Shown here: piece by piece, positions 419 through 51,591 of the stretch
Layout of the letters: each line of letters begins with the position of its first letter
How positions within the stretch are numbered: position 1 is the first letter of the stretch
NCBI GenBank assembly: GCA_025353105.1
Contig: JANXRG010000035.1
Span: 1-64,000, forward strand
Length of the DNA: 64,000 nt
Source of the DNA: Verrucomicrobiota bacterium
GTDB taxonomy: Bacteria; Verrucomicrobiota; Verrucomicrobiia; Chthoniobacterales; SZAS-18
Reading direction: 5' to 3'
The notes under the pieces: model-generated
Told to the model about the DNA's origin: nothing
The model's database searches: none
What the model saw: the letters and a program-made list of their open reading frames with translations, nothing else
Translations under genes and position numbers: made by a program

Positions 419-2068
419 CTACGGACGGACGTAGAGGTAGAGAGTCTTGGGCGGCGTGTAGGAGAATACGTCGGCGTAGTTGCCGCGCTCGGAACTGTAC
501 GGGGCGTTCAGCAGCATTTCGGTCCCGGTCCAGATGGCGCCGGCGAGATCAGTGCGTCCGCCGATGGTGCCGTTCGGCGCAATCGCGCTCCACTTCCCGA
601 CGCCGCCGGCCGCGGCGGGCTCGAAGCGGCCGCCATCGCCGAGACTATTGCCGCCGGGCGTGTTGCGTCCTCCCCAGATGATCATCTCGGTGCCACTCCA
701 GATCGCCGCATGGGTGCCGCGCCGGCCGATCAGCGGCGAGACCGGGATGGCGGTCCATGTGTCGGTGGCGGGGTTGTAGCGGCCGCCATCTGCCACGTAG
801 TCAAAGATGACCGCGGCCACGCCGCCCCACACGATCATTTCGCTTCCCGTCCAGACCAGGCTGAAATCAATGCGCGGCGTGGGTGAGTCGACCGCACCCA
901 TCGCGGTCCAGATGCCGTTGACGGGATCATATCGCGCCCCGACCGCAGCATAAACAAAGCCGGCTCCATAGCCGCCCCACACCAACATTTCGCCGCCGGT
1001 CCAGACGGACTTGTGGCTGGCCCGCGCCGATACGGCTGGATCAACCGGCACGGGCGTCCATGTGTCCGACGCCGGATTGTATCGCCCACCATCGCCAGCG
1101 TAAGTGACATCGTAGCCACCCCACACTATCATCTCGGCCCCGGTCCAAATTGCCGTGTGGGAACTCCGCGCCGTGGGTGCGTTGTTCGTGTCGGTGACAA
1201 GCCACGTGTCCGTAGCGGGGTTGTAGCGTCCGCCGGTATTCGTGTAATTGTAGGTGGTGAAAGGCGTGTAGGTAATGTTGAAACCGCCCCAGATGATCAT
1301 TTGGCTGCCCGACCAAATGGCGGTGTGGCCGAAGCGCGGTGTGATGGCGGGATCGTTGGCGATGCGCCGCCAGGAGTTGGTGGCCAGGTCGAGTCGCAGG
1401 CCGCCCGGATAAACGAGATCGCCATAGCCGCCGCCCCAGATGAGCAACTCGCCACCGGTCCAAACCGTGGTCGAACCGCCGCGCGCTGCGACCAACGATT
1501 TCCACGTGCCACCGCCCACCCCGGGCGTGAAGCGGCCACCATCCTTCAAGGTGGACACCGACGTATTGATGCGCCCGTAACCGCCCCAGACAATCATCTC
1601 GGTCCCCGTCCAAACGCCGGTGTGGGCGTAGCGGCCACTGGGCGCGTCCACGGTGGCGAATGTGGTCCAGATGTTAGCGACGGGATCAAAGCTCGCGCCG
1701 TCGCCAAGCGGAGTGCCCGCCGCGCCCTGACCGCCGAAGACGAGCATGGCCGAGCCGCTCCAAACCGCGGTGGAATAAAAGCGCGGGCTCGGCGCGTTGA
1801 CGTTCGAAAGCGTGGCCCAGGTCTTGGGCCCGGGATTGTAGTTGGCCACGTCGTTGTAGTAAACGCCCCCCAAGCCTCCCCAAATCAGCACCCCCGAACC
1901 CGTCCAGACCATGACGTGCGCATAGCGCGTGGCCAGCGGACTGGCCGACATGGCGGCCCAGGTGTTGGTGGTCGGATTGTAGTGCGCGCCATTGTTGTAA
2001 AAGGAGCTGCCGCTTAGCGCGCCGCCCCAGACGATCATTTCCGTGCCGGTCCAGACGGCGCGGTGCAC
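419..2068 (-). CDS. Kelch-repeat surface protein A, C-terminal part (after in-frame stop)
   Basis: This 549-residue frame begins with the GTG directly after the TAG at 2071-2069 and is in the same frame as the upstream part (2069-3247). It holds kelch motifs 4-14 of the gene, each of the form H-x-A-V-W-T-G-x-E-M-I-V-W-G-G followed by G-G-R-Y-N-P-x-x-x-x-W. It ends in the tail YTPPKTLYLYVRP, shared with paralogs B and C. There is no signal peptide, so if it is translated alone the product would stay in the cytoplasm. I read it as the C-terminal piece of one secreted beta-propeller protein, about 942 residues if read through, disrupted by a nonsense codon. Confidence 0.7.
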   Translation of the reverse strand: MHRAVWTGTEMIVWGGALSGSSFYNNGAHYNPTTNTWAAMSASPLATRYAHVMVWTGSGVLIWGGLGGVYYNDVANYNPGPKTWATLSNVNAPSPRFYSTAVWSGSAMLVFGGQGAAGTPLGDGASFDPVANIWTTFATVDAPSGRYAHTGVWTGTEMIVWGGYGRINTSVSTLKDGGRFTPGVGGGTWKSLVAARGGSTTVWTGGELLIWGGGYGDLVYPGGLRLDLATNSWRRIANDPAITPRFGHTAIWSGSQMIIWGGFNITYTPFTTYNYTNTGGRYNPATDTWLVTDTNNAPTARSSHTAIWTGAEMIVWGGYDVTYAGDGGRYNPASDTWTPVPVDPAVSARASHKSVWTGGEMLVWGGYGAGFVYAAVGARYDPVNGIWTAMGAVDSPTPRIDFSLVWTGSEMIVWGGVAAVIFDYVADGGRYNPATDTWTAIPVSPLIGRRGTHAAIWSGTEMIIWGGRNTPGGNSLGDGGRFEPAAAGGVGKWSAIAPNGTIGGRTDLAGAIWTGTEMLLNAPYSSERGNYADVFSYTPPKTLYLYVRP

Positions 2069-3247
2069 CTAGCGGACCGCCGGGGCGTTGGTGAGCGTGG
2101 TGACGCTTTGAAACTGGGTGAAATTGAAGCGACCGCCCGAATTGAGCGGCGTGCCGCCCGCACCGAGGCCGCCCCAGACGATCATCTCGTTGCTGCCGGT
2201 GACCACAGCGGTGTGGTAGGCGCGCGCGGCCACGTTCCCGTTGGCGGGAATGGTCGTCCACTCGTCGCTGGCCGGATTGTAATAGCCGCCGTCGCTGAAG
2301 GGCGTGGTCGCGTTCGTGCCGCCCCATATCAGCATGATGCCCGCGGCCAGCACGCCGGTGTGTCCCGCGCGCTCGGACGGTGCGTTGATCTTCGAGATGG
2401 GCGTCCAGAGATCGAAGGTCGGATTGTAGCGTGCGCCGTCATTGAGATAGGTGCTGTTGGCATTCACGCCGCCCCAGACGATCATTTCCGTGCCCGTCCA
2501 GACGGCCGTGTGGATGTAGCGATCGCCGGGCGGCGCGTTATGCAACGGGTTGAAGCGCTCGGCCGTCTCGATGCCGGTGAGCCGGACGTAGCCCGCGTTG
2601 AGCAATTCGGTCGCGTTGGGATTGGTCGACATGATGACGCCGCCGCTGGCCACGCCGCTCTGGCCGCTGGCGTTCAGATTGGCGGCGGCCGTGCCGGCGG
2701 CGAGCTGGGCGTTGGTGATCGCGCCGTCGGCGATGTTCGCCGCGCCGACCGCTCCGACCGCGAGCTTGGCGCCGGTGATGGAGCCGTCGGGCACATTGCC
2801 GGCCATGATGGCGTAGCCCACCGCGGCGATGCGTTGATCGGGCGTGAGCAGTTGAAATCCGTGCGAGCCGTCATTGAACCAGACGCGCAGCCGGACGTCG
2901 GGATTGGTGAAGACCGCGACGGGCACAATCGTCATGTTCGGCAGCAGGGCGTTGCCAAGCAGCACGGAGTAGAGGCCGTTGACGACCGGGAGCGAGACTG
3001 AGGCGGTCGGCTGGCTGCCGGCATTGCTGGTGCCGTCGTTGCTCCAGTAGGTCTGGGTGCCGTTGCCGTTGACGAGCGCAAACTTGAACTGGCCGGTGCC
3101 GTTGAAATTGGTGCCGATGACCGCAACGCGGCCCTGGTAGTTGAGGAGCTGGGGGACCTGGGAAAAGGAACAGGGAGCAAAAAGGAAGGAAGAAAGGACG
3201 ACGAGGGCCGCGAGGGCGAGCGTCGCGAAACGTTTGGAGAAGTTCAT
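2069..3247 (-). CDS. Kelch-repeat surface protein A, N-terminal part (ends at in-frame TAG)
   Basis: 392 residues. The signal peptide covers about residues 1-29 (MNFSKRF, hydrophobic core, then CSFS before QVPQ). An N-terminal domain of about 180 residues follows, with the motifs NYQGRV, GLYSVLLGN, LRVWFNDG and LTPDQRIAAVGYA. A short repeat block comes next (DGSITGAKLAVGA, ADGAITNAQLAAG), then kelch motifs 1-3. The frame stops at TAG where intact paralog B has Tyr in the homologous stretch P-A-A-R-Y-V-H-R-A. The frame is unchanged after the stop, so one base substitution explains the break. Part of the signal peptide is encoded by a dispersed purine-rich repeat. It is either a pseudogene or a secreted three-motif truncation. 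Confidence 0.75.
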   Translation of the reverse strand: MNFSKRFATLALAALVVLSSFLFAPCSFSQVPQLLNYQGRVAVIGTNFNGTGQFKFALVNGNGTQTYWSNDGTSNAGSQPTASVSLPVVNGLYSVLLGNALLPNMTIVPVAVFTNPDVRLRVWFNDGSHGFQLLTPDQRIAAVGYAIMAGNVPDGSITGAKLAVGAVGAANIADGAITNAQLAAGTAAANLNASGQSGVASGGVIMSTNPNATELLNAGYVRLTGIETAERFNPLHNAPPGDRYIHTAVWTGTEMIVWGGVNANSTYLNDGARYNPTFDLWTPISKINAPSERAGHTGVLAAGIMLIWGGTNATTPFSDGGYYNPASDEWTTIPANGNVAARAYHTAVVTGSNEMIVWGGLGAGGTPLNSGGRFNFTQFQSVTTLTNAPAVR

Positions 3248-5540: not shown

Positions 5541-5568
5541 GAGCGGGTGAAGGGAATCGAACCCTCGT
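5541..5568 (-). other. Attachment site remnant: duplicated 3' end of tRNA-Gly
   Basis: 28 bases identical to 11081-11108, which covers the T-arm and the 3' acceptor strand of the intact tRNA-Gly(CCC). The flanking bases differ on both sides. A 3'-tRNA fragment immediately before a tyrosine integrase gene is the classic footprint left when an integrative element recombines into a tRNA gene. Confidence 0.85.
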
Positions 5569-5666
5569 TACGCTTTCGTCTCTTTGCAAATTCATATTAC
5601 TCTTATTTAGTACTTGTTAGAACGAGCTTGAACGGCGTAGGTTGTTATGCAAAAGTGTTATGCGCC

Positions 5667-6836
5667 ATGGCAAGCATACATCTCCAACCGGGCCGCCCGT
5701 TCTACTTTGCGGCCTACACCCTCCCAAACGGTCAACGGGCTTTCCGGTCCACCAAAACGCGCAATAAGCGCCAAGCGGAGGAAGTGGCGAGGGCATGGGC
5801 AAAGGCGGCTCGGAAGGGCCGCAAAGGCGTCCTCACCCCCGATAGCGCGCGGACCATCATAGCGGAAGGGGTCGCCGATGCCTTTTGCGTGGCGACCGGC
5901 GACCGTATGCCCCAAAACACCGTCCGCGAATGGGCCGCAACATGGCTCAAGATGAAGGCCATCGAAACGGAACCGTCGACGCATGAGCGTTATCAAGGTG
6001 TAGTCGACCGCTTCATCAAGTTTCTTGGCGCCAAAGCCGACAGGGACCTCGTCACCATTCAGCCCGAAGTTATCACCAAACTCCGCGACGAACAGGTTGA
6101 GAAACTGTCGCGAGCGTCGGCCAACCTTGCCGTGAAAGTGCTTCGAGGTCTCTTCGCTACCGCGTTGAAGCGGGGCCTCGTCACGTCGAATCCGGCCCTT
6201 GCCGTGGAGGTCCTCAAACAGCGAGGTGAAAGCAATCGGCGACCATTTACCGTTGCGGAAGTGAAGCGCCTACTGGCCGCGGCGGATATGGAATGGCGCG
6301 GACTAATACTCTTCGGCCTATACACCGGGCAGCGCCTCGGAGACCTGGCTGCGCTCACATGGCAGGCGATAAAGATGGGTGCATCCACACAGGATTCAGA
6401 AATCGCCTTCCAGACACAGAAGACAGGGCGCCGGATGGTGCTTCCCTTGGTCGCGCCTTTGTTCGACTACGTTTCCGAATTACCCGCAAGCGATTCTCCC
6501 GACGCACCTTTGTTCCCTCGCGCGGCATCGGCCGCGTCGACCGCGACATTGAGCAATCAGTTTCGCCAATTGCTGGTCTCCGTAGGAATGGCGGAGAAGC
6601 GGCCTCACAGGTCAACGGGGAAAGGCCGAAATACCACCCGCGAACGTGCAGAGATTTCCTTTCATTGCCTGCGGCACACTGCAACCACATTCTTGAAAGC
6701 GGCAGGTGTGAGCAACTCGATGGCGATGGACATAATCGGCCACGACTCCGAAGCGATTTCGAGAGCTTATACCCACTTCTCTGCCGAGGACGTTCGCCGC
6801 AGCGTAGAAAAACTGCCTGATGTGACTAAGGAATGA
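5667..6836 (+). CDS. Tyrosine recombinase / site-specific integrase
   Basis: 389 residues from ATG 5667. The frame is open further up to 5547, but that extension only translates the tRNA fragment and spacer. An N-terminal arm and SAM-like core-binding region (about 85-180) precede the catalytic domain. The catalytic set appears complete: R223 in TGQRLGDL, K252 in QTQKTGRR, H333-x-x-R336 in FHCLRHTATT, H359 in IIGHD and nucleophile Y368 in AYTHF. It should excise or insert the surrounding element at the tRNA-Gly site. Its stop overlaps the next start in ATGA, so the two genes are translationally coupled. Confidence 0.93.
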   Translation: MASIHLQPGRPFYFAAYTLPNGQRAFRSTKTRNKRQAEEVARAWAKAARKGRKGVLTPDSARTIIAEGVADAFCVATGDRMPQNTVREWAATWLKMKAIETEPSTHERYQGVVDRFIKFLGAKADRDLVTIQPEVITKLRDEQVEKLSRASANLAVKVLRGLFATALKRGLVTSNPALAVEVLKQRGESNRRPFTVAEVKRLLAAADMEWRGLILFGLYTGQRLGDLAALTWQAIKMGASTQDSEIAFQTQKTGRRMVLPLVAPLFDYVSELPASDSPDAPLFPRAASAASTATLSNQFRQLLVSVGMAEKRPHRSTGKGRNTTRERAEISFHCLRHTATTFLKAAGVSNSMAMDIIGHDSEAISRAYTHFSAEDVRRSVEKLPDVTKE

Positions 6837-7228
6837 ATCCGATGAAGAAGAAGTCCCGCGTGAAACGCGCGAAAACGAATCGCGGACGCCCTGCTGGCGG
6901 AGGCTTTTTTCGAAACGCCAAATCAGAAATCGCGCCCGAGACATTCAGGAGAATGGAAATGGGTGAAATCCTGTTCCGCGCGCGATTTGGGCAATTAATC
7001 TCCCAAGAAGCGCTTCATATCTTTGAACTATTTCGTCGTGCCGTGGTGTCTGAAACAGAAGCGACGTTACTCGCCAACCCGTCGGAGATTCGCCGCCGAC
7101 TTGAAGCCATTAACACAAGACCCGCAAATACTAGCGAACGTGAATGGCTGGCGAATGAGAAATTAAGAATCGACACATGCAAAAATCTGAAAAAGACGCT
7201 CGCGGAAGGGAACGGGGTCACACCGTGA
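6833..7228 (+). CDS. Hypothetical protein coupled to integrase
   Basis: 131 residues starting in the ATGA overlap with the integrase stop. The N-terminus is very basic (MNPMKKKSRVKRAKTNRGR). The rest is predicted mostly helical with no recognised domain, and the only cysteine is at about residue 117. A basic tail and coupling to an integrase would fit a DNA-binding accessory or excision-type protein, but no helix-turn-helix is clear, so that role is only a guess. Confidence 0.65.
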   Translation: MNPMKKKSRVKRAKTNRGRPAGGGFFRNAKSEIAPETFRRMEMGEILFRARFGQLISQEALHIFELFRRAVVSETEATLLANPSEIRRRLEAINTRPANTSEREWLANEKLRIDTCKNLKKTLAEGNGVTP

Positions 7229-7296
7229 CATTTGACATTTCTTGAGGCAGACAGAGGTGGAATCGAGCCTTCCGCTTTCGCCGAACAGCGGGCGCG

Positions 7297-7332
7297 CTAC
7301 TCGGGGACGTTCGCGGGGGTGAGGACCGGGCA
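7297..7332 (-). pseudogene. Remnant of S12 hydrolase 3' end (scar 1)
   Basis: On the minus strand the bases ending at the TAG 7299-7297 encode VLTPANVPE followed by stop, identical to the C-terminus of S12 copy 2. The body of the gene is missing: directly upstream (7333-7371) lies the purine-rich repeat that in full copies sits near the signal peptide. This looks like an internal deletion of about 1.1 kb. The rest of the gap 7229-7564 holds only repeats, with no other gene I can support. Confidence 0.6.
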
Positions 7333-7453
7333 GAAAGGAACAGGGAGCAGGGAGCAGGGAGGAAGGAGGAACGATGACGGAGGGCGGTGGGGACTCTGGA
7401 GTGCCGAATGCCGAGGTGCGAACGCCGAAGTGCTAAAGCTGAGTGCGGAATGA
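7333..7453. repeat. Purine-rich repeat plus 'gaatgccgaNgtgcgaa' repeats
   Basis: 7333-7371 is the longest intergenic copy of the gaacagggagcagggaggaa family. About 7398-7440 carries the 'gagtgccgaatgccgagg' and 'gaacgccgaagtgctaaag' variants of the second local repeat family. The region is non-coding. Confidence 0.5.
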
Positions 7454-7564
7454 GGCAGGCTCGAGTGCAACTGGATCAATGTATTTTTCCTTTTATCAGC
7501 CTGTTACAACTGGCATAAGGGCGAAATTGCCACTCCGATTTTTCACCACACAGCGCACGGCGTC

Positions 7565-7765
7565 ATGCGAGTGCGGGAGCGAGGATTGAATTTCGAGGAG
7601 ATGCGCCAAGTTGTGAATTATCACGACAAGAAAACGCAACAGGCCCGCGGAGAACACGGAGGATTCATTTACAAGTACGAGAAATCCGCGGAAGGTGTGA
7701 CTCTCGTGGTCATCGCGGAGTCAAAGAAGAACGAACATTGGCTCATTTCTGGCTGGAGATTCTGA
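7565..7765 (+). CDS. DUF4258-like small protein (possible toxin)
   Basis: 66 residues: RERGLNFEEMRQVV, then beta strands GGFIYKYEKS, GVTLVVIAE and HWLISGWRF. The helix-then-sheet plan and the R-x-R-G-L-x-F-E-E motif resemble DUF4258, a family often seen as the putative toxin beside DUF2283 proteins. The family's conserved His-Ala lies upstream in frame (HHTAHGV), ahead of the first ATG. Either translation begins earlier at a non-ATG codon or the gene is 5'-damaged. The DUF2283-like gene starts 7 bases after its stop, consistent with a two-gene operon. Confidence 0.6.
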   Translation: MRVRERGLNFEEMRQVVNYHDKKTQQARGEHGGFIYKYEKSAEGVTLVVIAESKKNEHWLISGWRF

Positions 7766-7772
7766 ACTAAAC

Positions 7773-8093
7773 GTGGCTACCCAACGCGAAATAATCACCG
7801 TCCGTAGCAAGATGCCTCCAGTCGTGGAAATCGATACGGAAGTGCGGGCGGCGTATGTGCGCTTTAAGCGTACTGCCGTCGTTCGGACGGAGGCGCTTGA
7901 CCGCCCGAATATCGTTGTGACGGTCGATTTCGACCGTGATGACGACGTGGTCGGAATTGAGTTGATCGGAGTGGACGAATTCAGCGTCCACAAACTCCTG
8001 AAGGCCGCGAAAGTAACGGCCGAAAACTCTGACTTGGACCGTGCCAAGTATGTTGGTGCCGGCCGCAGTCACCGAGAGGTTGTCGCCGTATAG
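7773..8093 (+). CDS. DUF2283-like protein (possible antitoxin)
   Basis: 106 residues from GTG 7773. Core features match DUF2283: VRAAYVRFK, then TVDFDRDDDVVGIELIGVDEFS. The usual family member is 60-75 residues, so this one has extensions at both ends. Its position directly after the DUF4258-like gene inside a mobile element supports a toxin-antitoxin-like module. This is inferred from family pairing, not from any functional residue. An ATG at 7812 is an alternative start. Confidence 0.6.
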   Translation: MATQREIITVRSKMPPVVEIDTEVRAAYVRFKRTAVVRTEALDRPNIVVTVDFDRDDDVVGIELIGVDEFSVHKLLKAAKVTAENSDLDRAKYVGAGRSHREVVAV

Positions 8094-8099
8094 GGAGCG

Positions 8100-8440
8100 A
8101 AAGCAGAGGACGGAGAGCGGAATGTCGAAGTGCGAATGCCGAAGTGCGAAGTGCGAAGTGGGAAGTGTGAAGCTGGAAAGCGGAAGTCGGAAATCGGAAA
8201 TCGGATGGGGTCAGGGTCCGTTCCGAGAACAGCGGGAATGCTACTCAGGCACGTTTGACGGAGTCAAAACGGCGGCGAGGGACACGCCGAAAGGAACAAG
8301 GAGCAGGGAGGAAGGAGGAATTGGGAATGCCGAATGCCGAATGCCGAAGTGCGAATGGGGGAGAACAGAGGACGGACAGCGGAATGTCGAAGTGCGAATG
8401 CCGAAGTGCGAACGAGATTTCGAGTGATGGTGAACGAAGA
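8100..8440. repeat. Repeat-filled intergenic region with S12 scar
   Basis: No supportable gene. It holds many copies of the 'gaatgccgaagtgcgaa' family (about 8121-8190 and 8328-8412), a purine-rich repeat (8290-8320) and the second S12 3'-end remnant. The repeats occur on both sides of the scar, which suits recombination between them. Confidence 0.5.
8241..8279 (-). pseudogene. Remnant of S12 hydrolase 3' end (scar 2)
   Basis: On the minus strand the frame ends LAAVLTPSNVPE then TAG at 8243-8241, matching the C-terminus of S12 copy 1 (LTAVLTPSNVPE). Upstream of it on the same strand comes the purine-rich repeat, not the gene body. The arrangement repeats scar 1, and the bases just past the stop also resemble those at scar 1 (gaacagcggg before the stop codon). 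Confidence 0.6.
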
Positions 8441-8446
8441 CCAACG

Positions 8447-8896
8447 TCATTGTTCCATGACTTGAACGGACCCGTCTCGTCTTACAGAGGCGATGAATGG
8501 AGGATCCGTTTTCCGAGCGATTTTCTTCATTTTGGCAAGCGCGCAAACAAAGATTTCGGCCATCTGTGCGCCAGTGAGATCTTTGCTGCTAGAGAGGAAG
8601 AAGGCCTTTGCACCTGCGGCTTGAAACGCCTGAATCTCTGCCGGTCGACGTCGGATCTGCTTGTCCTTCGTCAAGATCAGCCAACCCCGCGCACCCACGT
8701 CAGCCAACCACACTGAATCCGGCGTATCCGCGGGAAAATGATCGTCGTGTCGTTCCACCTTTTCGCCTGCAGCGCGAAGCGTGTCGGGCACAACTTTCCC
8801 GCCCAATGAACGGTCCACGAAAAAGACCGTAGATTCAGGCGGCGTGAGCGAACTCGCAACGGACGGCCTCTTCGATTTCTTCCGGCTTGCAGCCAT
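8447..8896 (-). CDS. PIN-like toxin (VapC45-type)
   Basis: 149 residues from ATG 8896. Motifs include FFVDRSLGGK (first acidic residue), ERHDDHFP, DSVWLADVGARGWLILTKDK (second acidic cluster) and FFLSSS. This order suits the PIN-like ribonuclease fold of the DUF5615/VapC45 group. It follows the DUF433 gene and overlaps it by about 62 bases, as in toxin-antitoxin operons. Family members cleave RNA and are neutralised by the upstream partner; that activity is inferred here. The last 40 residues (ARKTDPPFIASVRRDGSVQ) include a short C-terminal strand. Confidence 0.75.
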   Translation of the reverse strand: MAASRKKSKRPSVASSLTPPESTVFFVDRSLGGKVVPDTLRAAGEKVERHDDHFPADTPDSVWLADVGARGWLILTKDKQIRRRPAEIQAFQAAGAKAFFLSSSKDLTGAQMAEIFVCALAKMKKIARKTDPPFIASVRRDGSVQVMEQ

Positions 8897-9572
8897 AATC
8901 GTCGGCGAGTTCCTTCGTCCCCTCGCCGGCGCGATAGCGCTCCGCCACCACGCTTGTGGCCACCGCTCGCCGTGCAATCACTGGCCGGCCGAATGCGATC
9001 GACGGGTCAACGACAATGATTTTTGGGTCCCGAGATTCATCTCCTCCCGTTCGCGTGAACAAGAACAGACGAACGGCCCGCCCGTCCGTGTCGCGCTCGA
9101 CTCGCTTCAAATATGCTTCCAGAACACTTCTCATTGCGATCTGACCCTGCTGCGAGGCGGAAACGAGTCCACCAAGATGTTGGACGAACAGGTCAATGCC
9201 ATCGGTTTCAAACCGGACGTTCGCCAAAGGATGATCAATCTTCAGCTCACGGCTAACGAAGTCGAGGGCGGTTCGGACCTTCGGCAGAGCGACGTTATGC
9301 TTGCGGCGGAGCGCCGCCAATACATGCGCCTCAACGAAATTAAGAAACGAAAGCAGCGGCACCTTTGGATCGGGCAGTTCGATAACGACCCGAAACTTTC
9401 GCGCATACCCGTGGCTCTTGTACGACTGACCCCGCACCCAGGAGGCAAGCGTCGTAGGAGGCAACCGAAGGTATCGCGCAGCTTCGGTAATCCCGTAAAC
9501 AGGCTGATTGCGTGCGTCCGTGTCGGAGGCGGTGGGATTGGGCTTCACGTTGTCGACTTCCAATCTTCGCAT
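8835..9572 (-). CDS. DUF433 antitoxin (VapB45-type)
   Basis: 245 residues from ATG 9572. The N-terminal part, VYGITEAARYLRLPPTTLASWVRG, is a MerR-like helix-turn-helix. The C-terminal part, DPSIAFGRPVIARRAVATSV then ERYRAGEGTKELADDYGCKPEEIEEAVR, is a textbook DUF433 motif. It probably represses its own operon and binds the PIN toxin encoded just downstream. The frame is open far upstream to 10427, but that extension runs antiparallel-frame through the S12 gene and is not real. Confidence 0.8.
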   Translation of the reverse strand: MRRLEVDNVKPNPTASDTDARNQPVYGITEAARYLRLPPTTLASWVRGQSYKSHGYARKFRVVIELPDPKVPLLSFLNFVEAHVLAALRRKHNVALPKVRTALDFVSRELKIDHPLANVRFETDGIDLFVQHLGGLVSASQQGQIAMRSVLEAYLKRVERDTDGRAVRLFLFTRTGGDESRDPKIIVVDPSIAFGRPVIARRAVATSVVAERYRAGEGTKELADDYGCKPEEIEEAVRCEFAHAA

Positions 9573-9658
9573 ACGCGATACTGAGACGTCCAGACCGATT
9601 CTTCCTCTGATAACTCTAAAGAGAGTCGAGGGTCGAGGCTCGGCGGTAAGAGGATGGG

Positions 9659-10786
9659 CTATTCCGGCACGTTGGCGGGGGTGAGAACTGTGGTCAGTGC
9701 TTTGAAGATGGTGGGGGCGGGGTTGGCTTTGCCGACGGGGATGTCGGTGTTCACCATGATGACGACGGCGGCTTTTTTCTCGGGGAAGTAGTAGGCGGCG
9801 CAGTTGTAGCCGGGGAGCTCGCCCGTGTGGCCGAGCCAGCCGTGATCGGTGCCGACGCCGATTCCATAAGCGCGCACGGGCGTGTTCGGCGGCATGGTCA
9901 TCCACGTCAGCCGCTCCTTTTGCATCGCGGGCGAGATGAGCGTGCCGGTGGTGTACGACACGACCCACGTGCGCAGATCTGCCAGCGTGGAGATGAGCTG
10001 GCCGGCGGTGAACGCCCAGCTCGGGTTGCGATTGGTCGCGTCGTCGAGGCTGTCGTCGAGGGTCTGCACCGTGGTGCCGCGCGCGTACGGCGACGGCATC
10101 GCCGACGTCGTGGGCCACGAGGTCTGCGACAGCTTCAACGGCGTGAAGATTTTCTCGGCGAAGAGGTCCTGGATCTTTTTGCCGGACACCTGCTCGACGA
10201 TCATGCCGAGCAGCACGTAGTTGGTGTTGCTGTAGTGCCAGCCCTGGCCCGGCGGGAAGTCGGGCGGCTGCGCAAGGCCCGCGTCGACCAGCTCGCGCGG
10301 CGTCCACTCGCGCTGGAAGTTTGAAAACGCCAGCTTCACCCACGCGTCGTCCTCGGTGTAGCTGTGCAGACCGGCCGTCATGTCGGCGAGCATGCGCAGG
10401 GTGATTTTTTCGCCGTTGGGCACCCACGGCGCGTATTTGCTCACGGGATCGTCGAGTCCGAGCTTCTTTTCGTCGGCGAGGATCAGCAGCGCGGTGGCGG
10501 TGAAGGTCTTGGTGATGCTGCCGATGCGGAAGTGATCGTCGACGCCCATCGGTCGCTTCGTCGTCACGTCGGCGACTCCGCGAGTCGCGACGTAGCTGCC
10601 CTGGCCCGGGAACCAGATGCCCACGATGACACCGGGCGCCTTGGTGGCCGCGAACGACTGGTCGAGGTCGTTGTCGATGGCGGTGCGCTGGGCGGGCGCG
10701 AAGGGAGCGTCATCGGCCGCGAACGCGGCGAGGGAAAAAACGAACAAGGAAGAGGAAAGAAGGAGGAAGCGGCGGGAGGCGGGCAT
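9659..10786 (-). CDS. Serine beta-lactamase-like hydrolase (peptidase S12 family), copy 2
   Basis: 375 residues from ATG 10786, chosen because MPASRRFLLLSSSLFVFSLAAFA is a good signal peptide. Catalytic boxes: S90-I-T-K93, Y185-S-N187 and H320-T-G322, all intact. The protein should act outside the cytoplasmic membrane on a D-amino acid peptide or ester; the true substrate is unknown. It is nearly identical to copy 1 (3688-4977), but its 5' end differs. An upstream ATG at 11026 is in frame and would add 80 residues translated from the heptanucleotide repeat at 10871-10975. It is the last gene before the right end of the integrative element. Confidence 0.88.
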   Translation of the reverse strand: MPASRRFLLLSSSLFVFSLAAFAADDAPFAPAQRTAIDNDLDQSFAATKAPGVIVGIWFPGQGSYVATRGVADVTTKRPMGVDDHFRIGSITKTFTATALLILADEKKLGLDDPVSKYAPWVPNGEKITLRMLADMTAGLHSYTEDDAWVKLAFSNFQREWTPRELVDAGLAQPPDFPPGQGWHYSNTNYVLLGMIVEQVSGKKIQDLFAEKIFTPLKLSQTSWPTTSAMPSPYARGTTVQTLDDSLDDATNRNPSWAFTAGQLISTLADLRTWVVSYTTGTLISPAMQKERLTWMTMPPNTPVRAYGIGVGTDHGWLGHTGELPGYNCAAYYFPEKKAAVVIMVNTDIPVGKANPAPTIFKALTTVLTPANVPE

Positions 10787-10820
10787 GGACAGGAACAGGG
10801 AAGAGGGAAGAAGGAGGAAT
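10741..10820. repeat. Two purine-rich repeat copies at the 5' end of S12 copy 2
   Basis: One copy (about 10741-10770) lies within the signal-peptide codons and one (about 10789-10820) just upstream of the start codon. Both belong to the same family as the intergenic copies at 7333 and 8290 and the signal-peptide-encoded copies in the kelch genes. Confidence 0.5.
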
Positions 10821-10870
10821 GGAAAGGCGGAATGAAGAGTCGAGGGTCGAGAGTCGACGGAGGCAAATGT

Positions 10871-10975
10871 CAGAGGACAGAGGACAGAGGACGGAGGACA
10901 GAGGACAGAGGACAGAGGACAGAGGACAGAGGACAGAGGACAGAGGACGGAGGACGGAGGACGGGGGACGGGGGA
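10871..10975. repeat. Heptanucleotide tandem repeat, 15 units
   Basis: Fifteen uninterrupted 7-base units, mostly cagagga, with cggagga and cggggga variants, the latter at the right end. Since 7 is not a multiple of 3, gain or loss of one unit shifts frame. On the minus strand it is open and joins the S12 copy 2 frame. The remaining gap up to the tRNA (10976-11081) has nothing else I can identify. Confidence 0.9.
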
Positions 10976-11081
10976 CAACGGAAAGCGAAGGCCCACGGGT
11001 GGACGAGAGGACAGGGAAACGGTCATCCGACAATTCTCAAAATTCCGTCAATTCCATCCAAAACCAAAACCCTCGACGGAG

Positions 11082-11152
11082 AGCGGGTGAAGGGAATCGA
11101 ACCCTCGTATCAAGCTTGGGAAGCTCGTGTTCTACCATTGAACTACACCCGC
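11082..11152 (-). tRNA. tRNA-Gly (anticodon CCC)
   Basis: Cloverleaf read on the minus strand: 7-bp acceptor GCGGGTG/CACCCGC, D-stem GTTC/GAAC, anticodon stem CGAGC/GCTTG with loop TTCCCAA (anticodon CCC), and T-loop TTCGATT on a 5-bp stem. The discriminator base is T and the CCA is not encoded. The T-arm and 3' acceptor strand are duplicated at 5541-5568, marking this gene as the attachment site of the adjacent element. Confidence 0.95.
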
Positions 11153-44643: not shown

Positions 44644-44738
44644 GTGGCACGCTTGAATTAAGTCCGGAAGTACTGCTTCCTTGCCGTGGCTGAACCGTGA
44701 TAGAGTCACTGTCAGCAGTTCTCCCCGGGTCACAATTC

Positions 44739-47594
44739 ATGATGCAAATGCATGGCGGCGGTCGCCTGCGTCGGTTCGCCGCCGCCTGCTTCGCATTTTC
44801 TTCCGTCCTCCCTGTTCCCTCTTCCTTTTCCCAAGTCCCGCAGCTGATCAATTACCAGGGCCGCGTGGCGGTCAGCGGTACGAATTTCAACGGCACGGGT
44901 AATTTCAAGTTCGCCCTGGTGAATGGCGATGGCACGCAGACGTACTGGAGTAATGACGGCACGAGCCTGGCGGGCAGCCAGCCGGCGGTGGGTGTGACGC
45001 GCACCGTAACGAACGGACTTTATTCCGTACTGCTGGGCGACACCTCGCTCGGGGCGGCCATGACGACCATCCCGCTGGCGGTGTTCAACAACTCCGACGT
45101 GCGCCTGCGAGTCTGGTTCAACGACGGACCGCACGGCTACCAGTCGCTCACACCGGACCAGCGTATCGCCGCGGTGGGCTACGCAGTCATGGCCGCAAAC
45201 GTGCCGGACGGCGCGATCACCACCGCGAAAATCGCTGCGGGTGCGGTTACCAGCGCGCAACTGGCGAATGGCGCGATTGGCGCGGCGCAACTCGGCGCGG
45301 GTGCGGCGGCCGCGAATTTGGCCGCTGGCGGCCAGAGCGCGGTCGGCAGCGGCGGCGCGATCGTTTCGACCAACCCGAACGCGACCGAGCTGATCGCGGC
45401 GGGTTACGTGAGGCTGACCGCGATCGAGTCGGCGGAGCGCTATCGCTCGATCCGCAACACGCCGCCCAGCGGCCGGAGCCAGCACACCGCGGTCTGGACC
45501 GGCGCGGAGATGATCGTCTTCGGAGGGAGCAGCAATCGCGTAAGTGCCATCTTCGACGACGGCGCGCGCTATTATCCCGCGATGGATCACTGGGTGCCGC
45601 TGCCCAAGGAAAATGCACCGAGCGCGCGCTTCGCCCACATTGCGGTGTGGACGCCAACCTACGGTCGAATGATCGTATGGGGCGGCGCGAACGCGAGCGC
45701 CACCCTCGCGGACGGTGGGAGCTATGACCCCGTGCAGAACGTTTGGACACCGATTCCAGTTTCGCCCGTGATGTCGGCGCGCAGCTACCATGCAGCCGTG
45801 GTCCTCGGCAACACGGTGGTGGTTTGGGGCGGCACCTCGATTCCCACCGGAGGGGGAGCGCTAAACACCGGGGGGAGGCTCGATGCTCTCACGCTGCAAT
45901 GGACCGCCACGTCCACTGGCGCCAACTCGCCGGCAGCCCGCTACGTGCATCGCGCCATCGCCACGGACACCGAGATGATCGTCTGGGGCGGCGCGGCGAG
46001 CGGCGCCACATATTTCAACAACGGCGCTCGTTACAATCCGGTAACCGACGCCTGGGCGGCGATGGCGACGCCCGCGCTGGCGACGCGCTACGCGCACACA
46101 CTCGTCTGGACCGGTGCGCGCATGATCGCCTGGGGTGGAGTGGGCCTATCCACGTACAGCGACGGAGCGATGTACAATCCGACGAACAATACTTGGACGG
46201 CGATGGCGGCGGCCACCGGGGTGGCGGGACGGTATTACTTTTCCAGCGTCTGGACGGGCGGTGAGATGATTGTCTTTGGTGGCAGCAATTCCGCCGGCGC
46301 GCAGATCGGCGATGGCGGTCGCTTCAACCCGACCACGAATCTTTGGACGGCGCTGCCGGCGCCCGATCTGTCCGCGCGCCGCTGGCTGCACACCGCGATC
46401 TGGACGGGTGGGGAAATGATCGTCTGGGGCGGAGACTTTAGTGACGGATTGGACACCGGCCGGCGCTTCAATCCCTTCAGCAACACGTGGCTCACGATGC
46501 AGACGCCGCGGCGCGACGAAATTGCGGTCTGGACGGGCACCGAGCTGATCTTCTGGGGCGGCCAGATCAGTCTGGGTTTCAATACCGTCGACTACAGCGA
46601 CGATGGGCTGCGCTGGGACGCGGCGACAAACGTCTGGCGGCGCATCCCGCCGGACCCCGTGATGCCGATCCGCATCGGTCATACCGCTGTGTGGAGTGGC
46701 AGCGAGATGATCGTCTGGGGAGGATTCCAACCGGGCGGCGGCCGCTACAATCCGGCGGGCGCGGGCAGTTGGACCGCGATTGCGTCGAAGCCGGAACTCG
46801 ATCTCCGATTTTCTCACACGGCTCTCTGGACCGGAACTGAAATGATCGTCTGGGGCGGATCCTTCTTCACCGGCGGCATCAACACTTACCCCGCAGTGGG
46901 CGGGCGCTACAATCCCGTGACGGATGCCTGGACACTGATGGCGACCCCGCCCGCCGCAATCCCCGCGCGCGCGGGGCACACGGCGCTTTGGACCGGCACC
47001 GAAATGCTCATTTGGGGGGGTTATTCCTCCGATGCCGGAAATGTCTACACCTATACCAACACCGGAGGTCGCTATCGTCCGGTGTCGGACCAGTGGACGG
47101 CGACTAGCGGGGCGGGCGCGCCTGCGGGTCGCTATGCGCACACGGCAGTCTGGACCGGAAGGGAAATGATCGTTTGGGGTGGGAGCAGCAACAACGCCCC
47201 TTTCCTTTTTTCGGATGGCGGCCGGTACGATCCGGCGGCTGACGCTTGGACTTCCATCGCCGTTCCGGCCGCGATCCTCGGCGCCCGCTACCAGCACATG
47301 GCCGTCTGGACCGGCACGGAGATGCTGATCTGGGGTGGCGATGGCTTCGGTCCCAGCGGCGTCTACAGCAACTGGCAAAGTGGCGGCGCGCGTTACGATC
47401 CCACCGGCACCGGCACCTGGTCGCCGATCACGCCAAATCGCGAGATTGGGGGCCGCGATGCGGCGACCGCCATCTGGACGGGCACCGAGATGATTGTCAC
47501 GAACCACTCCTCAGCCGATTACCTGGCCGGCAACTATTCCGAGGTCTTCGGCTACACGCCGCCCAGGACGCTGTATCTCTACCTGCGGCCGTGA
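44739..47594 (+). CDS. Kelch-repeat surface protein B (intact)
   Basis: 951 residues from ATG 44739 (GTG 44697 would add 14). A signal peptide, RLRRFAAACFAFSSVLPVPSSFS, ends before QVPQLINYQGRV. The N-terminal domain with GLYSVLLGD, LRVWFNDG and LTPDQRIAAVGYA is followed by DGAITTAKIAAGAVTSAQLANG repeats and then 14 kelch-type motifs (W-T-G-x-E-M-I-V-W-G-G ... R-Y-N-P-x-x-x-x-W), which would make two seven-bladed propellers. It ends YTPPRTLYLYLRP. It is presumably secreted or displayed on the surface; the ligand is unknown. This copy is the reference for broken paralogs A and C. Confidence 0.88.
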   Translation: MMQMHGGGRLRRFAAACFAFSSVLPVPSSFSQVPQLINYQGRVAVSGTNFNGTGNFKFALVNGDGTQTYWSNDGTSLAGSQPAVGVTRTVTNGLYSVLLGDTSLGAAMTTIPLAVFNNSDVRLRVWFNDGPHGYQSLTPDQRIAAVGYAVMAANVPDGAITTAKIAAGAVTSAQLANGAIGAAQLGAGAAAANLAAGGQSAVGSGGAIVSTNPNATELIAAGYVRLTAIESAERYRSIRNTPPSGRSQHTAVWTGAEMIVFGGSSNRVSAIFDDGARYYPAMDHWVPLPKENAPSARFAHIAVWTPTYGRMIVWGGANASATLADGGSYDPVQNVWTPIPVSPVMSARSYHAAVVLGNTVVVWGGTSIPTGGGALNTGGRLDALTLQWTATSTGANSPAARYVHRAIATDTEMIVWGGAASGATYFNNGARYNPVTDAWAAMATPALATRYAHTLVWTGARMIAWGGVGLSTYSDGAMYNPTNNTWTAMAAATGVAGRYYFSSVWTGGEMIVFGGSNSAGAQIGDGGRFNPTTNLWTALPAPDLSARRWLHTAIWTGGEMIVWGGDFSDGLDTGRRFNPFSNTWLTMQTPRRDEIAVWTGTELIFWGGQISLGFNTVDYSDDGLRWDAATNVWRRIPPDPVMPIRIGHTAVWSGSEMIVWGGFQPGGGRYNPAGAGSWTAIASKPELDLRFSHTALWTGTEMIVWGGSFFTGGINTYPAVGGRYNPVTDAWTLMATPPAAIPARAGHTALWTGTEMLIWGGYSSDAGNVYTYTNTGGRYRPVSDQWTATSGAGAPAGRYAHTAVWTGREMIVWGGSSNNAPFLFSDGGRYDPAADAWTSIAVPAAILGARYQHMAVWTGTEMLIWGGDGFGPSGVYSNWQSGGARYDPTGTGTWSPITPNREIGGRDAATAIWTGTEMIVTNHSSADYLAGNYSEVFGYTPPRTLYLYLRP

Positions 47595-47689: not shown

Positions 47690-49621
47690 ATGATGACCAG
47701 GCTTAGCGGACCATTCTTTGGCTGGCTGGCGCTCGCCGCGCTTTCCTCCCTCCTCCTTGTTCCCTGTTCCTTTTCCCAAGTCCCCCAACTAATTAATTAC
47801 CAGGGTCGCGTCGTGGTGAACGGCGCGAATTTTGCCGGCACCGGCCAGTTCCGTTTCGCTCTGGTCGATGGCGCCGGCAATCCCTACTGGAGCAACGACG
47901 GCACCAGCATGGGCGGGCCGCCGATTAACGCGGTTTCAATTACCGTGACCAACGGCCTTTATTCGGTGCTGCTGGGCGACAGCACGTTGCCGAACATGAC
48001 GGCCATCCCGCCGTCCGTCTTCAATAATCCCGATGTCCGCCTGCGTGTCTGGTTCAACGACGGCACCAATGGTGTGCAGCAACTCACGCCCGACCAGCGT
48101 ATCGCCGCGGTCGGCTATGCGGTCATCGCCGGCAATGTCCCTGACGGCGCCATTACGGGCGCGAAGATCGCCGCGGGCACCATTACCAGCGCGAACATCG
48201 CCACCGGCACGATCACGGGCGCGAACATCGCGGCCGGCGCGATCGGCAATCCCCAGCTTGCCGCGGGCGCGGCGGCCGCGAATCTCGCCGGCAATTCCCA
48301 AAGCGCGGTGGGCAGCGGCGGCATCATTCTCGCCGCCACGCAGGATCCGGCACTGGTCGCGGCCGGCTACGTGAACATCGGCTCCACCACGATTGCCGAT
48401 GGCTGGCAGCAGCGCGTCACCACCATCCCGCCGGCCTCGGGCCGCTTTTCCGTGACGGGCGTTTGGACCGGCGCCGAGCTGATCGTGTGGGGCGGCTGGA
48501 CAATCAGCCCGCTGGCGTTTTTTGGCGACGGCGCGCGTTACAACCCGGTTTCGAACTCGTGGACCGCCCTGCCCGCGGCGGGCGCACCGACGCCGCGGCG
48601 CAGCCACACCGCGATTTGGACCGGGAGCGAGATGATTGTCTGGGGAGGCATAAACAGCGGCGGCGCGCAGGGCGACGGAGGACGCTACCATCCGACCACC
48701 AACGCATGGTCGGTCGTCACTCCGACGGGCGCGCCGTCCGCGCGTTTGTCGCATACCGCGGTCTGGACCGGGAGCGAGATGATCGTCTGGGGAGGAGCCG
48801 ACGCGAGTTTGAACCCGTTCGCTGACGGCGCCCGCTTTAACCCGAGCGCGAACGGTAACGCCGGTCAGTGGTCGCCGCTCAACGCGGCCATGACCACGCC
48901 CCCCTCGGCGCGCTTCTCCCACACGGCGGTGTGGACCGGCACGGTGATGATCGTCTGGGGCGGCAGCAGCGCGTCGATTCAACTCGGGGACGGCGCGCGC
49001 TACAATCCGATTGCCGCCATGTGGACCGCGCTGCCGGCGCTGAATGCGCCGAGCGCGCGTTATTCGCACACCGCGGTCTGGACGGGCAGCCTGATGGTGA
49101 TCTGGGGCGGGACCAATAACTCGTTGTCCGAATTCGGTGACGGCGCGCGCTACAACCCTGCGGCCGACGCGTGGTCCCCTGTCGGCACGGACATGAACAC
49201 GCCGGGACCGCGCCATCTGCAGCTCGCGGTTTGGACGGGCGGCAGCATGATCATCTGGGGCGGATTGAACAACTCGACGTACCTTGGCACCGGGGGCCGG
49301 TACGATCCGGTATCCAATGGCTGGAGCGGCATCAGCGCCGTCAACGCACCCTCCGCACGCTACGGCAGCGCCGCGATTTGGAGCGGCAAAGAAATGATTC
49401 TGTGGAGCGGGATCGCCGGCACTACGAACTACCCGAATGACGGGCGCCGCTACGACCCCGCTGCAGACACGTGGACGCAGCTCGCTTCGACCTCCCCTTC
49501 AGCGCGCGGCGGCTACTCGGTGGTATGGACCGGCAGCGAGATGATCGTCTGGGGCGGCCGGATCAGCAGCTTGGTTTTCTACAACGACGGCGCGCGTTTT
49601 AATCCGGCCCTAAATACGTGA
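47690..49621 (+). CDS. Kelch-repeat surface protein C, N-terminal part (ends at in-frame TGA)
   Basis: 643 residues. The signal peptide (FGWLALAALSSLLLVPCSFS) precedes QVPQLINYQGRV, the common N-terminal domain and a DGAITGAKIAAGTITSANIATG repeat block. Eight kelch motifs follow. The frame ends RFNPALNT then TGA, where the motif N-x-W in every other unit demands Trp (TGG). The same frame continues beyond, so one base change accounts for the break. It sits 95 bases after paralog B and probably arose by tandem duplication. Confidence 0.75.
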   Translation: MMTRLSGPFFGWLALAALSSLLLVPCSFSQVPQLINYQGRVVVNGANFAGTGQFRFALVDGAGNPYWSNDGTSMGGPPINAVSITVTNGLYSVLLGDSTLPNMTAIPPSVFNNPDVRLRVWFNDGTNGVQQLTPDQRIAAVGYAVIAGNVPDGAITGAKIAAGTITSANIATGTITGANIAAGAIGNPQLAAGAAAANLAGNSQSAVGSGGIILAATQDPALVAAGYVNIGSTTIADGWQQRVTTIPPASGRFSVTGVWTGAELIVWGGWTISPLAFFGDGARYNPVSNSWTALPAAGAPTPRRSHTAIWTGSEMIVWGGINSGGAQGDGGRYHPTTNAWSVVTPTGAPSARLSHTAVWTGSEMIVWGGADASLNPFADGARFNPSANGNAGQWSPLNAAMTTPPSARFSHTAVWTGTVMIVWGGSSASIQLGDGARYNPIAAMWTALPALNAPSARYSHTAVWTGSLMVIWGGTNNSLSEFGDGARYNPAADAWSPVGTDMNTPGPRHLQLAVWTGGSMIIWGGLNNSTYLGTGGRYDPVSNGWSGISAVNAPSARYGSAAIWSGKEMILWSGIAGTTNYPNDGRRYDPAADTWTQLASTSPSARGGYSVVWTGSEMIVWGGRISSLVFYNDGARFNPALNT

Positions 49622-49627
49622 GCGGGG

Positions 49628-50557
49628 GTGCAGGTGAATGGCGCGCCGGGGGCGCGCGCCAATCATTCGGCGGTGTGGACGGGCACCGAAATGATCATCT
49701 TTGGCGGCTTTGCAAGCGGCGCGACCTTTTTGAATGATCTCGGCCGCTACAATCCCACAACCAACGCCTGGAGCATCGCGGCGCCGACCGGGACGCCGCC
49801 GTCGGTGCGATCCAGTCATACTGCCGTCTGGACCGGCGCGGTCATGATAGTCTACGGCGGCACGGCGTCGGGATCTACGCTGAACAATGGGGGTCAATTT
49901 AATCCGTCCACGGATGTCTGGACGGCGTTGCCCACCGTCGGCGCCCCCGCGACAGGTCGGATTCAGCACACGGCCGTCTGGTCGGGCACGGAGATGTTGG
50001 TTTGGGGCGGGTATTCGGGCAGCGTGACACTCGCCGACGGCGGCCGATACAACCCGAGTGGAGCTGGCTCCTGGACCGCGATGTCGCTCACGGGCGCGCC
50101 GCCGAGCGCGCGGAGCATGCACACGGCGGTCTGGACGGGCACAGCCATGTTGGTGTGGGGAGGGACCAGCAGCGGAGGCTTGGGATTAGGATCATTGGGC
50201 GACGGTTATGCCTTCACGCCGGGCGCGGGCACTGCCTGGACAACGCTTGCGAGCGCGGGCGCACCGAGCGCGCGTGCTGAACATGCGGCCGTTTGGACCG
50301 GAGCGGAGATGATCATCTGGGCTGGTTATGGCGGGCCCGCGGCGGGATCGAACCTCAATGACGGAGGCCGCTACAATGCGGCGAACAATTCATGGAGTCC
50401 GCTCACCCTGAGCAACGCCCCGCCGGCGCGCTATTTTTCCTCCGCCGTTTGGACGGGCGCGGAAATGCTGATCTATGGCGGATTTACACCGTTGTCGCTC
50501 AACGACACCTGGAGCTACACGCCGCCAAAAACGTTGATCATGTATCAGCGGCCGTGA
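49628..50557 (+). CDS. Kelch-repeat surface protein C, C-terminal part (after in-frame stop)
   Basis: 309 residues from GTG 49628, in frame with the upstream part across the TGA at 49619-49621. It holds kelch motifs 9-14 and ends YTPPKTLIMYQRP, the tail also seen in A and B. There is no signal peptide. Together with 47690-49621 it would give a 955-residue protein with 14 motifs. It is most simply a nonsense-interrupted gene, though readthrough cannot be excluded from sequence. Confidence 0.7.
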   Translation: MQVNGAPGARANHSAVWTGTEMIIFGGFASGATFLNDLGRYNPTTNAWSIAAPTGTPPSVRSSHTAVWTGAVMIVYGGTASGSTLNNGGQFNPSTDVWTALPTVGAPATGRIQHTAVWSGTEMLVWGGYSGSVTLADGGRYNPSGAGSWTAMSLTGAPPSARSMHTAVWTGTAMLVWGGTSSGGLGLGSLGDGYAFTPGAGTAWTTLASAGAPSARAEHAAVWTGAEMIIWAGYGGPAAGSNLNDGGRYNAANNSWSPLTLSNAPPARYFSSAVWTGAEMLIYGGFTPLSLNDTWSYTPPKTLIMYQRP

Positions 50558-50698: not shown

Positions 50699-51187
50699 TT
50701 ATCTCGCCCCGCGCTTGGGCGCCGTGGCGAGTCGCGCGTCGAAATCGAAGCGCTGCATTTTGCCGATTTTCAGCTTCGCAAAATCCGAATGGACGGGATT
50801 CGCGAGCAGATTGTGCTGCTGCGGAATGATTGCGCTCGGCACGCGCAGCAGGCAGGACTTGCCGGCTTCCAGCCATTGGTCGCCGACTTTCTGCGCCGCG
50901 CCGAGTTCCATCGCGTCATTCCACTTCGCCGGCAGGCGCGGTGGCTCGGCGATCCAGCGTGGGTCGAACTCGACCTCGAAAAAAACGTACGGCACCCGCG
51001 CCAGGTCTTCGCGCTCGGTCGTGTGCACGAGAATTTCCAGCGCCGCAAGCGCGATGCTGTCGCTCAAATAAATCACGCGGCGGCCCCGGGAATTCCAGCG
51101 ACCGCCGTATTTCGCGGCACCGTCGCCCGAGAACGCGCCGCGCGCCACGCGCTGCTGGCAGATGCGATAGGCCCGCGCGAGGCTCAC
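50699..51187 (-). CDS. RES-domain toxin
   Basis: 162 residues from GTG 51187. The RES signature is visible: YRICQQRVARGAFSGDGAAKYGGRWNSRGRRVIYLSDSIALAALEILVHT (R near residue 30, E near 51) and LLRVPSAIIPQQHNLLANPVHSDF. RES toxins degrade NAD or modify PRPP synthetase in other bacteria. The start lies inside the antitoxin stop (GTGA), the usual order for Xre/MbcA-RES operons. Confidence 0.9.
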   Translation of the reverse strand: MSLARAYRICQQRVARGAFSGDGAAKYGGRWNSRGRRVIYLSDSIALAALEILVHTTEREDLARVPYVFFEVEFDPRWIAEPPRLPAKWNDAMELGAAQKVGDQWLEAGKSCLLRVPSAIIPQQHNLLANPVHSDFAKLKIGKMQRFDFDARLATAPKRGAR

Positions 51188-51591
51188 GCAATCACCCCGT
51201 GTTCGAGGCGGCCGAGCAGATCCTCCACCGCCCGCGCGCCCGGTTCGGTCTCGGCAAAATCGAGTGGCGTCTTGCCGCCGAGCCCGCGCGGACGTTCCAT
51301 CATCCAGCGCCGGGCGCGATCGAATCCGCCGAGCACCTCGGTGGCGCGCGCCACGATGCGGCCGAGCCGCGCGACCCGCTCCGATTCATCGGGCGGCAGG
51401 GGTGTGCGTTGCTTGAGCCGCCGCGCGAGGGTGCGCAGCGGAATGTTCACCGCCTGGGAGAGCCGCTCGTGCGGCAGGCCGAGCTGCTCCGCCATCCGCT
51501 GGATCGTCCCGGCGGGAAGCCCGTGCGCCACGGCCGCGGCCATCCGGACGTTGTCAAAGGCCACGCGGGGATCAAGAATGTCGAGTGCCAT
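51184..51591 (-). CDS. MbcA/ParS/Xre-type antitoxin
   Basis: 135 residues from ATG 51591. A helix-turn-helix-like start (TIQRMAEQLGLPHERLSQAVNIPLRTLARRLKQ) is followed by the MbcA/ParS C-terminal toxin-binding domain (ESERVARLGRIVARATEVLGGFDRARRWMMERPRGLGGKTPLDFAETEPGARAVEDLLGRLEHG). It neutralises the RES toxin and probably represses the operon. A promoter-like element ends right at the start codon, so the mRNA may be leaderless. The upstream 300 bases (51592-51900) hold no other gene. Confidence 0.9.
   Translation of the reverse strand: MALDILDPRVAFDNVRMAAAVAHGLPAGTIQRMAEQLGLPHERLSQAVNIPLRTLARRLKQRTPLPPDESERVARLGRIVARATEVLGGFDRARRWMMERPRGLGGKTPLDFAETEPGARAVEDLLGRLEHGVIA

Follow-up and report, generated by a model that had tools for sequence, protein, structure and literature searches.

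The window analysed here, a 64,000-nucleotide stretch of DNA from a Verrucomicrobiota bacterium, carries three members of a kelch gene family (Table 1). Gene A lies on the reverse strand, 44 kb from gene C, while genes B and C stand in tandem on the forward strand; gene B is intact, and genes A and C are each interrupted by an in-frame stop codon. The genes of this family encode secreted proteins with an N-terminal beta domain, 14 kelch units that make two 7-bladed propellers, and a C-terminal tail, and the paralogs are about 50% identical in protein.

The neighbours in the window include purL, a RES/Xre pair, an HtrA-like protease and recG, and no gene context tied to the gene C stop was found among them. 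The pair, a RES toxin with an Xre-MbcA-ParS antitoxin (50699-51591, minus strand), lies directly downstream of gene C. Elsewhere in the window, a 28-nt direct repeat occurs at 5541-5568 and 11081-11108, the second copy being at one end of a tRNA-Gly(CCC), and the approximately 5.5 kb between the repeats hold a tyrosine integrase (5547-6836) and a PIN-like gene; the region 5541-11152 is probably an integrated element with att sites. A closely related pair of PF00144 serine hydrolases of the beta-lactamase fold (3688-4977 and 9659-11026, minus strand), whose 3' ends are 88% identical over 300 nt, has one member inside this putative element and one outside it.

Table 1. Kelch genes of the window and the parts of gene C (positions in the window)
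Feature	Position	Strand	Remark
Kelch gene A, TAG-interrupted	419..3247	-	943 codons
In-frame TAG, codon 393 of gene A	2069-2071	-	between units 3 and 4
Kelch gene B, intact	44697..47594	+	tandem neighbour of gene C; about 950-965 aa by start codon
Kelch gene C	47690-50557	+	956-codon frame
Gene C segment 5' of the premature stop	47690..49621	+	643 aa
Gene C N-terminal beta-rich domain	47792..48100	+	residues 35-137
Gene C kelch array	48464..50539	+	14 units (unit HMM)
Premature TGA, codon 644 of gene C	49619-49621	+	last strand of kelch unit 8
Gene C same-frame continuation	49622..50557	+	end of unit 8, units 9-14, C-terminal tail TLIMYQRP

Results

Gene C is split at a conserved tryptophan

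A sequence-only reading of this DNA had proposed that gene C is divided by a TGA at a conserved tryptophan and that six more motifs follow in the same frame to the common C-terminal tail, and each of these points was confirmed. The stop lies within ARFNPALNT*AGVQ (asterisk, TGA), and an alignment of paralogs of this genome with members from two other genomes of the genus places tryptophan at this position in seven of the eight other full-length 14-unit relatives; gene C thus carries an in-frame stop where its homologs keep a sense codon, as a pseudogene does. The segment before the stop starts with a signal-peptide-like N-terminus and the beta-rich domain and continues with kelch units 1-7 and three strands of unit 8. 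The segment after it has no signal peptide of its own and runs through units 9-14 into the family tail, TPPKTLIMYQRP.

No second interrupting stop was found in the gene C frame besides the TGA at codon 644, and the downstream part scores as coding by codon usage. Kelch units are detected on both sides of the stop by a unit HMM built without genes A and C, and PF24681, PF13415 and PF01344 exceed their Pfam cut-offs before and after it. For the Pfam kelch propeller, PF24681 reaches E 6.5e-61 before the stop, and E=8e-51 is obtained in the 311 residues after it; thus, the downstream frame is not a chance open reading frame. Tandem kelch motifs over the Pfam cut-offs make gene C a kelch protein, and its 14 units with a galactose-oxidase-like fold agree with the six to eight blades that close a propeller. 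Translation might also restart internally at GTG codons beyond the stop, but this was set aside, as a product starting there would have no signal peptide and is unlikely to be exported.

Family members in the genome and in other Verrucomicrobiota

The genome (3.72 Mb in 121 contigs, about 97.6% complete) contains three intact kelch paralogs of genes A and C, namely gene B and one member each on contigs C24 and C117, the last with seven units. At the N-terminus, all members in this genome have a segment resembling a signal peptide and then a beta-rich domain in which "VPxLINYQGR" occurs, and 14-unit members terminate in "LYxRP". That two of three paralogs are broken, by different stop codons, therefore stands inside the window (TGA in gene C, TAG in gene A), but genome-wide the proportion falls to two of five complete kelch arrays because the C24 and C117 members are also intact. 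At the gene A TAG, the corresponding residue varies across the family.

The sequence of a further kelch copy is divided between two contig ends, those of C111 and C40. The overlapping pieces of this cut paralog (L023 and L024) differ at several residues, and the difference is due to a variant copy or to a strain mixture in the assembly. Another member, on contig C101, is intact and shares the N-terminal domain without having kelch units. In their place it has a long region of repeated 'NTASG..AL.SNT' units, and inspection by eye suggests an S74-like chaperone tail (L026:1616-4654).

The unit HMM was also run over 77 loci of Verrucomicrobiota genomes together with the own paralogs, and array sizes are mostly 7, 14 or 21 units, corresponding to single, double or triple propellers of seven blades; the counts of 8, 13 and 15 probably reflect noise in unit detection. 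Two loci of other Verrucomicrobiota, L070 and L079, have 21-unit arrays of three 7-bladed propellers. Outside the own genome, a hand count with duplicate loci removed gave frameshifts in 4 arrays and in-frame stops in none of the 49. With the three intact own arrays included, broken arrays amount to 6/54, about one in nine.

Predicted effect of the truncation

When the TGA is read as Trp, the gene C model has a mean pLDDT of 80.9; residue 644 falls in the final strand of unit 8, and galactose oxidase is the structure that matches the model best (Z 32.9, 341 residues, rmsd 3.0). This 7-blade match covers model residues 234-951, suggesting a pairing of strands close to the N-terminal end of the array with the C-terminal propeller. 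The full-length model forms strands at 212-215, 228-235 and 238-242, whereas the model of the truncated 643-aa protein (mean pLDDT 75.0) lacks the strands at 212-242, a stretch where the pLDDT is mostly about 35-45; here, the best matches, tied at Z about 25-26, include 8-bladed WD40 propellers and galactose oxidase. As far as AlphaFold models of truncated repeat proteins go, which are weak evidence, the comparison suggests that truncation would unpair the strands tying the N- and C-termini together and points towards a product that is damaged and not neatly shortened.

The 643-aa product might nevertheless work as a shorter protein, in the manner of members with a single 7-unit propeller, as the stop directly follows seven complete units and 7-unit members occur both in this genome (C117) and in many relatives. 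Against this, the modelled termini seem tied, their strands are lost on truncation, 8-bladed propellers are among the best matches of the truncated model, and the stop in gene A leaves just three units. We consider such a working short form quite improbable.

Readthrough and cassette exchange

Regulated readthrough and a silenced-cassette or diversity-generating system had also been offered as explanations, and neither was supported. In the former, programmed or regulated readthrough, or UGA recoding, would yield the full-length protein, consistent with a downstream frame that is intact and coding-like. However, the 46 tRNAs include none whose anticodon would read a stop codon, no SelB exceeds the cut-off in the genome at its completeness of about 97.6%, and the lone match to the tRNA-Sec model is a tRNA-Ser(UGA), so that the SelB and tRNA-Sec of a selenoprotein system are both missing from these searches. 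The hairpin downstream of the gene C stop is unremarkable (z -1.3), the broken genes of this genome use all three stop codons, and kelch-family genes normally terminate in TGA and TAG. We give readthrough or recoding very little credence.

In the latter, gene C would be a silent cassette, with gene conversion swapping blades among the paralogs, several of which exist and two of which are in tandem. Such a system would show long near-identical tracts, but no exact tract of more than about 30 bp is common to A, B, C and the intact paralogs, whose proteins are only about half identical. The absence of longer shared tracts disfavours blade exchange, the probability of which we regard as practically negligible.

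Age of the stop and selection on the downstream half

The pN/pS of the downstream part of gene C is 0.62 against gene B and 0.52 against C24, that of the upstream units is 0.60 and 0.58, and the control pair B-C24 gives 0.60-0.62. Because paralog dS is near saturation (1.2-1.7), dN/dS against gene B is unable to time the stop, and from these sequences the pN/pS comparison says only that decay appears undetectable. The mean unit score after the stop is 50.6, compared with 46-61 for the last six units of the intact paralogs. About 3.5% of random substitutions downstream of the stop would create another stop; as no second stop arose, neutral divergence since the gene C stop would be at most about 0.09 per site. 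Since the downstream half resembles the upstream half in unit scores and pN/pS, the stop appears, at the sequence level, to be young or an error.

Broken genes elsewhere and the possibility of an error

A codon-usage survey of 761 kb of the own genome, in which true interruptions were picked by eye, gave seven stops in six genes, A and C included, with TAA, TAG and TGA all used. On contig C117, an ABC transporter ATPase has a TAA between the Walker A and signature motifs (L154:18163-18165, minus strand), which PF00005 spans. A subtilase-family gene on the same contig (L155:5351-6127, minus strand) has two in-frame stops, TGA and TAA, and PF00082 spans the TGA; with two stops, this gene looks like real decay. 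Two more nonsense-broken candidates have no Pfam match. The same survey over 400 kb of a sister genome, for which seeded training was used at 68% GC as antisense frames contaminate the unseeded set, showed only apparent normal gene ends. At the rate given by the five other stops (about 178,000 codons), the roughly 6,000 kelch-family codons should contain approximately 0.2 stops, and two are seen; by this rough, post hoc estimate, the kelch-family stops are a mild excess, as expected for dispensable genes.

Alternatively, the organism may have an intact gene C, with the TGA reflecting either an incorrect base in the metagenome bin or the allele of a minority strain. The source assembly consists of 121 contigs, the differing pieces at C111 and C40 indicate that variant copies exist, and the otherwise undamaged frame of gene C, without decay, suits an error as well as a recent mutation. 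Moreover, the nearest same-genus relatives are just about 57-63% identical within the kelch family, and a syntenic kelch gene, looked for on the same-genus purL contig (purL 83% identity), is absent. A search for a near-identical strain in the species-level collection, which may omit the window's own genome, gave none. On the other hand, stop-making substitution errors are rare in read consensus, which counts against an artefact at this TGA, and the broken genes include the subtilase with its two stops and appearance of true decay. An artefact is therefore rather unlikely, although we retain it as a real alternative.

Discussion

We consider it likely that gene C belongs to a multi-copy, lineage-specific family of secreted proteins with double kelch propellers and was inactivated recently, a case of ordinary pseudogenisation. 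We propose the following course. A real point mutation in the genome would have produced the TGA at the unit-8 Trp position, so that the product would stop after seven units and three strands, lacking both the second propeller and the closing strand at the C-terminus; because these are missing, the truncated protein, as modelled, would probably be misfolded or non-functional. The copy would then persist because it can be dispensed with, owing either to the intact paralogs (B, C24 and C117) or to changed conditions. This accessory family of surface proteins may well be under loose selection, as gene A has its own stop and relatives elsewhere are frameshifted. Indeed, among the explanations raised from the window, relaxed selection after duplication fits best, with other accessory genes of this genome also apparently nonsense-broken.

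A different view takes both stops, in A and in C, as on/off alleles that segregate within a repertoire of surface propellers. Fluctuating selection, such as phage or predator pressure, would maintain them, and the cells of a population would then display different propellers. We regard this as highly improbable. Under the favoured reading of recent inactivation, gene C alone means little, being one more broken copy of a dispensable gene family. The clean 7/14/21-unit arithmetic of the family, together with its broken arrays, makes a convenient data set on the birth and death of tandem propellers.

Three known systems can be compared. First, like the mosaic adhesive trimer (MAT) fibre proteins of Bdellovibrio (PMC10769870), the gene C family has a signal peptide and a conserved N-terminal beta-rich domain, followed by variable C-terminal parts (kelch, or the S74-like tail seen by eye in the C101 member). 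The layout of the C101 paralog also resembles that of MAT fibre proteins. However, the N-terminal domain of gene C matches NF053851 (Bdello_MAT_N) at E 2.5e-4 and 20.9 bits, far under the curated cut-off of 60, which leaves the family outside the MAT fibre proteins, and no trimeric fibre region was identified in A, B or C; the sequence resemblance would thus be a weak lead only. Second, gene C has the motif and predicted fold of the 7-bladed kelch/galactose-oxidase propellers (PF24681, PF01344 and PF13415), but differs in having two tandem propellers behind a separate N-terminal beta domain.

Third, Pereira and Lupas (2022) described how frameshifts and in-frame stops disrupt propellers in many genomes, and they regarded the disrupted forms as decaying while allowing for sequencing error (PMC9218822). 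Their examples include a kelch-like propeller of Verrucomicrobia, PYL67592.1, broken by a frameshift and a stop (PMC9218822). Gene C is likewise a kelch-like gene of Verrucomicrobiota in which the remaining blades are still present past the stop. In contrast to those propellers, which have near-identical blades, gene C has diverged blades, with 14 units rather than 7, and its damage consists of one stop codon only, without an indel. Most likely, the gene C stop is of the broken-copy kind already described, in a propeller with older and more diverged blades.
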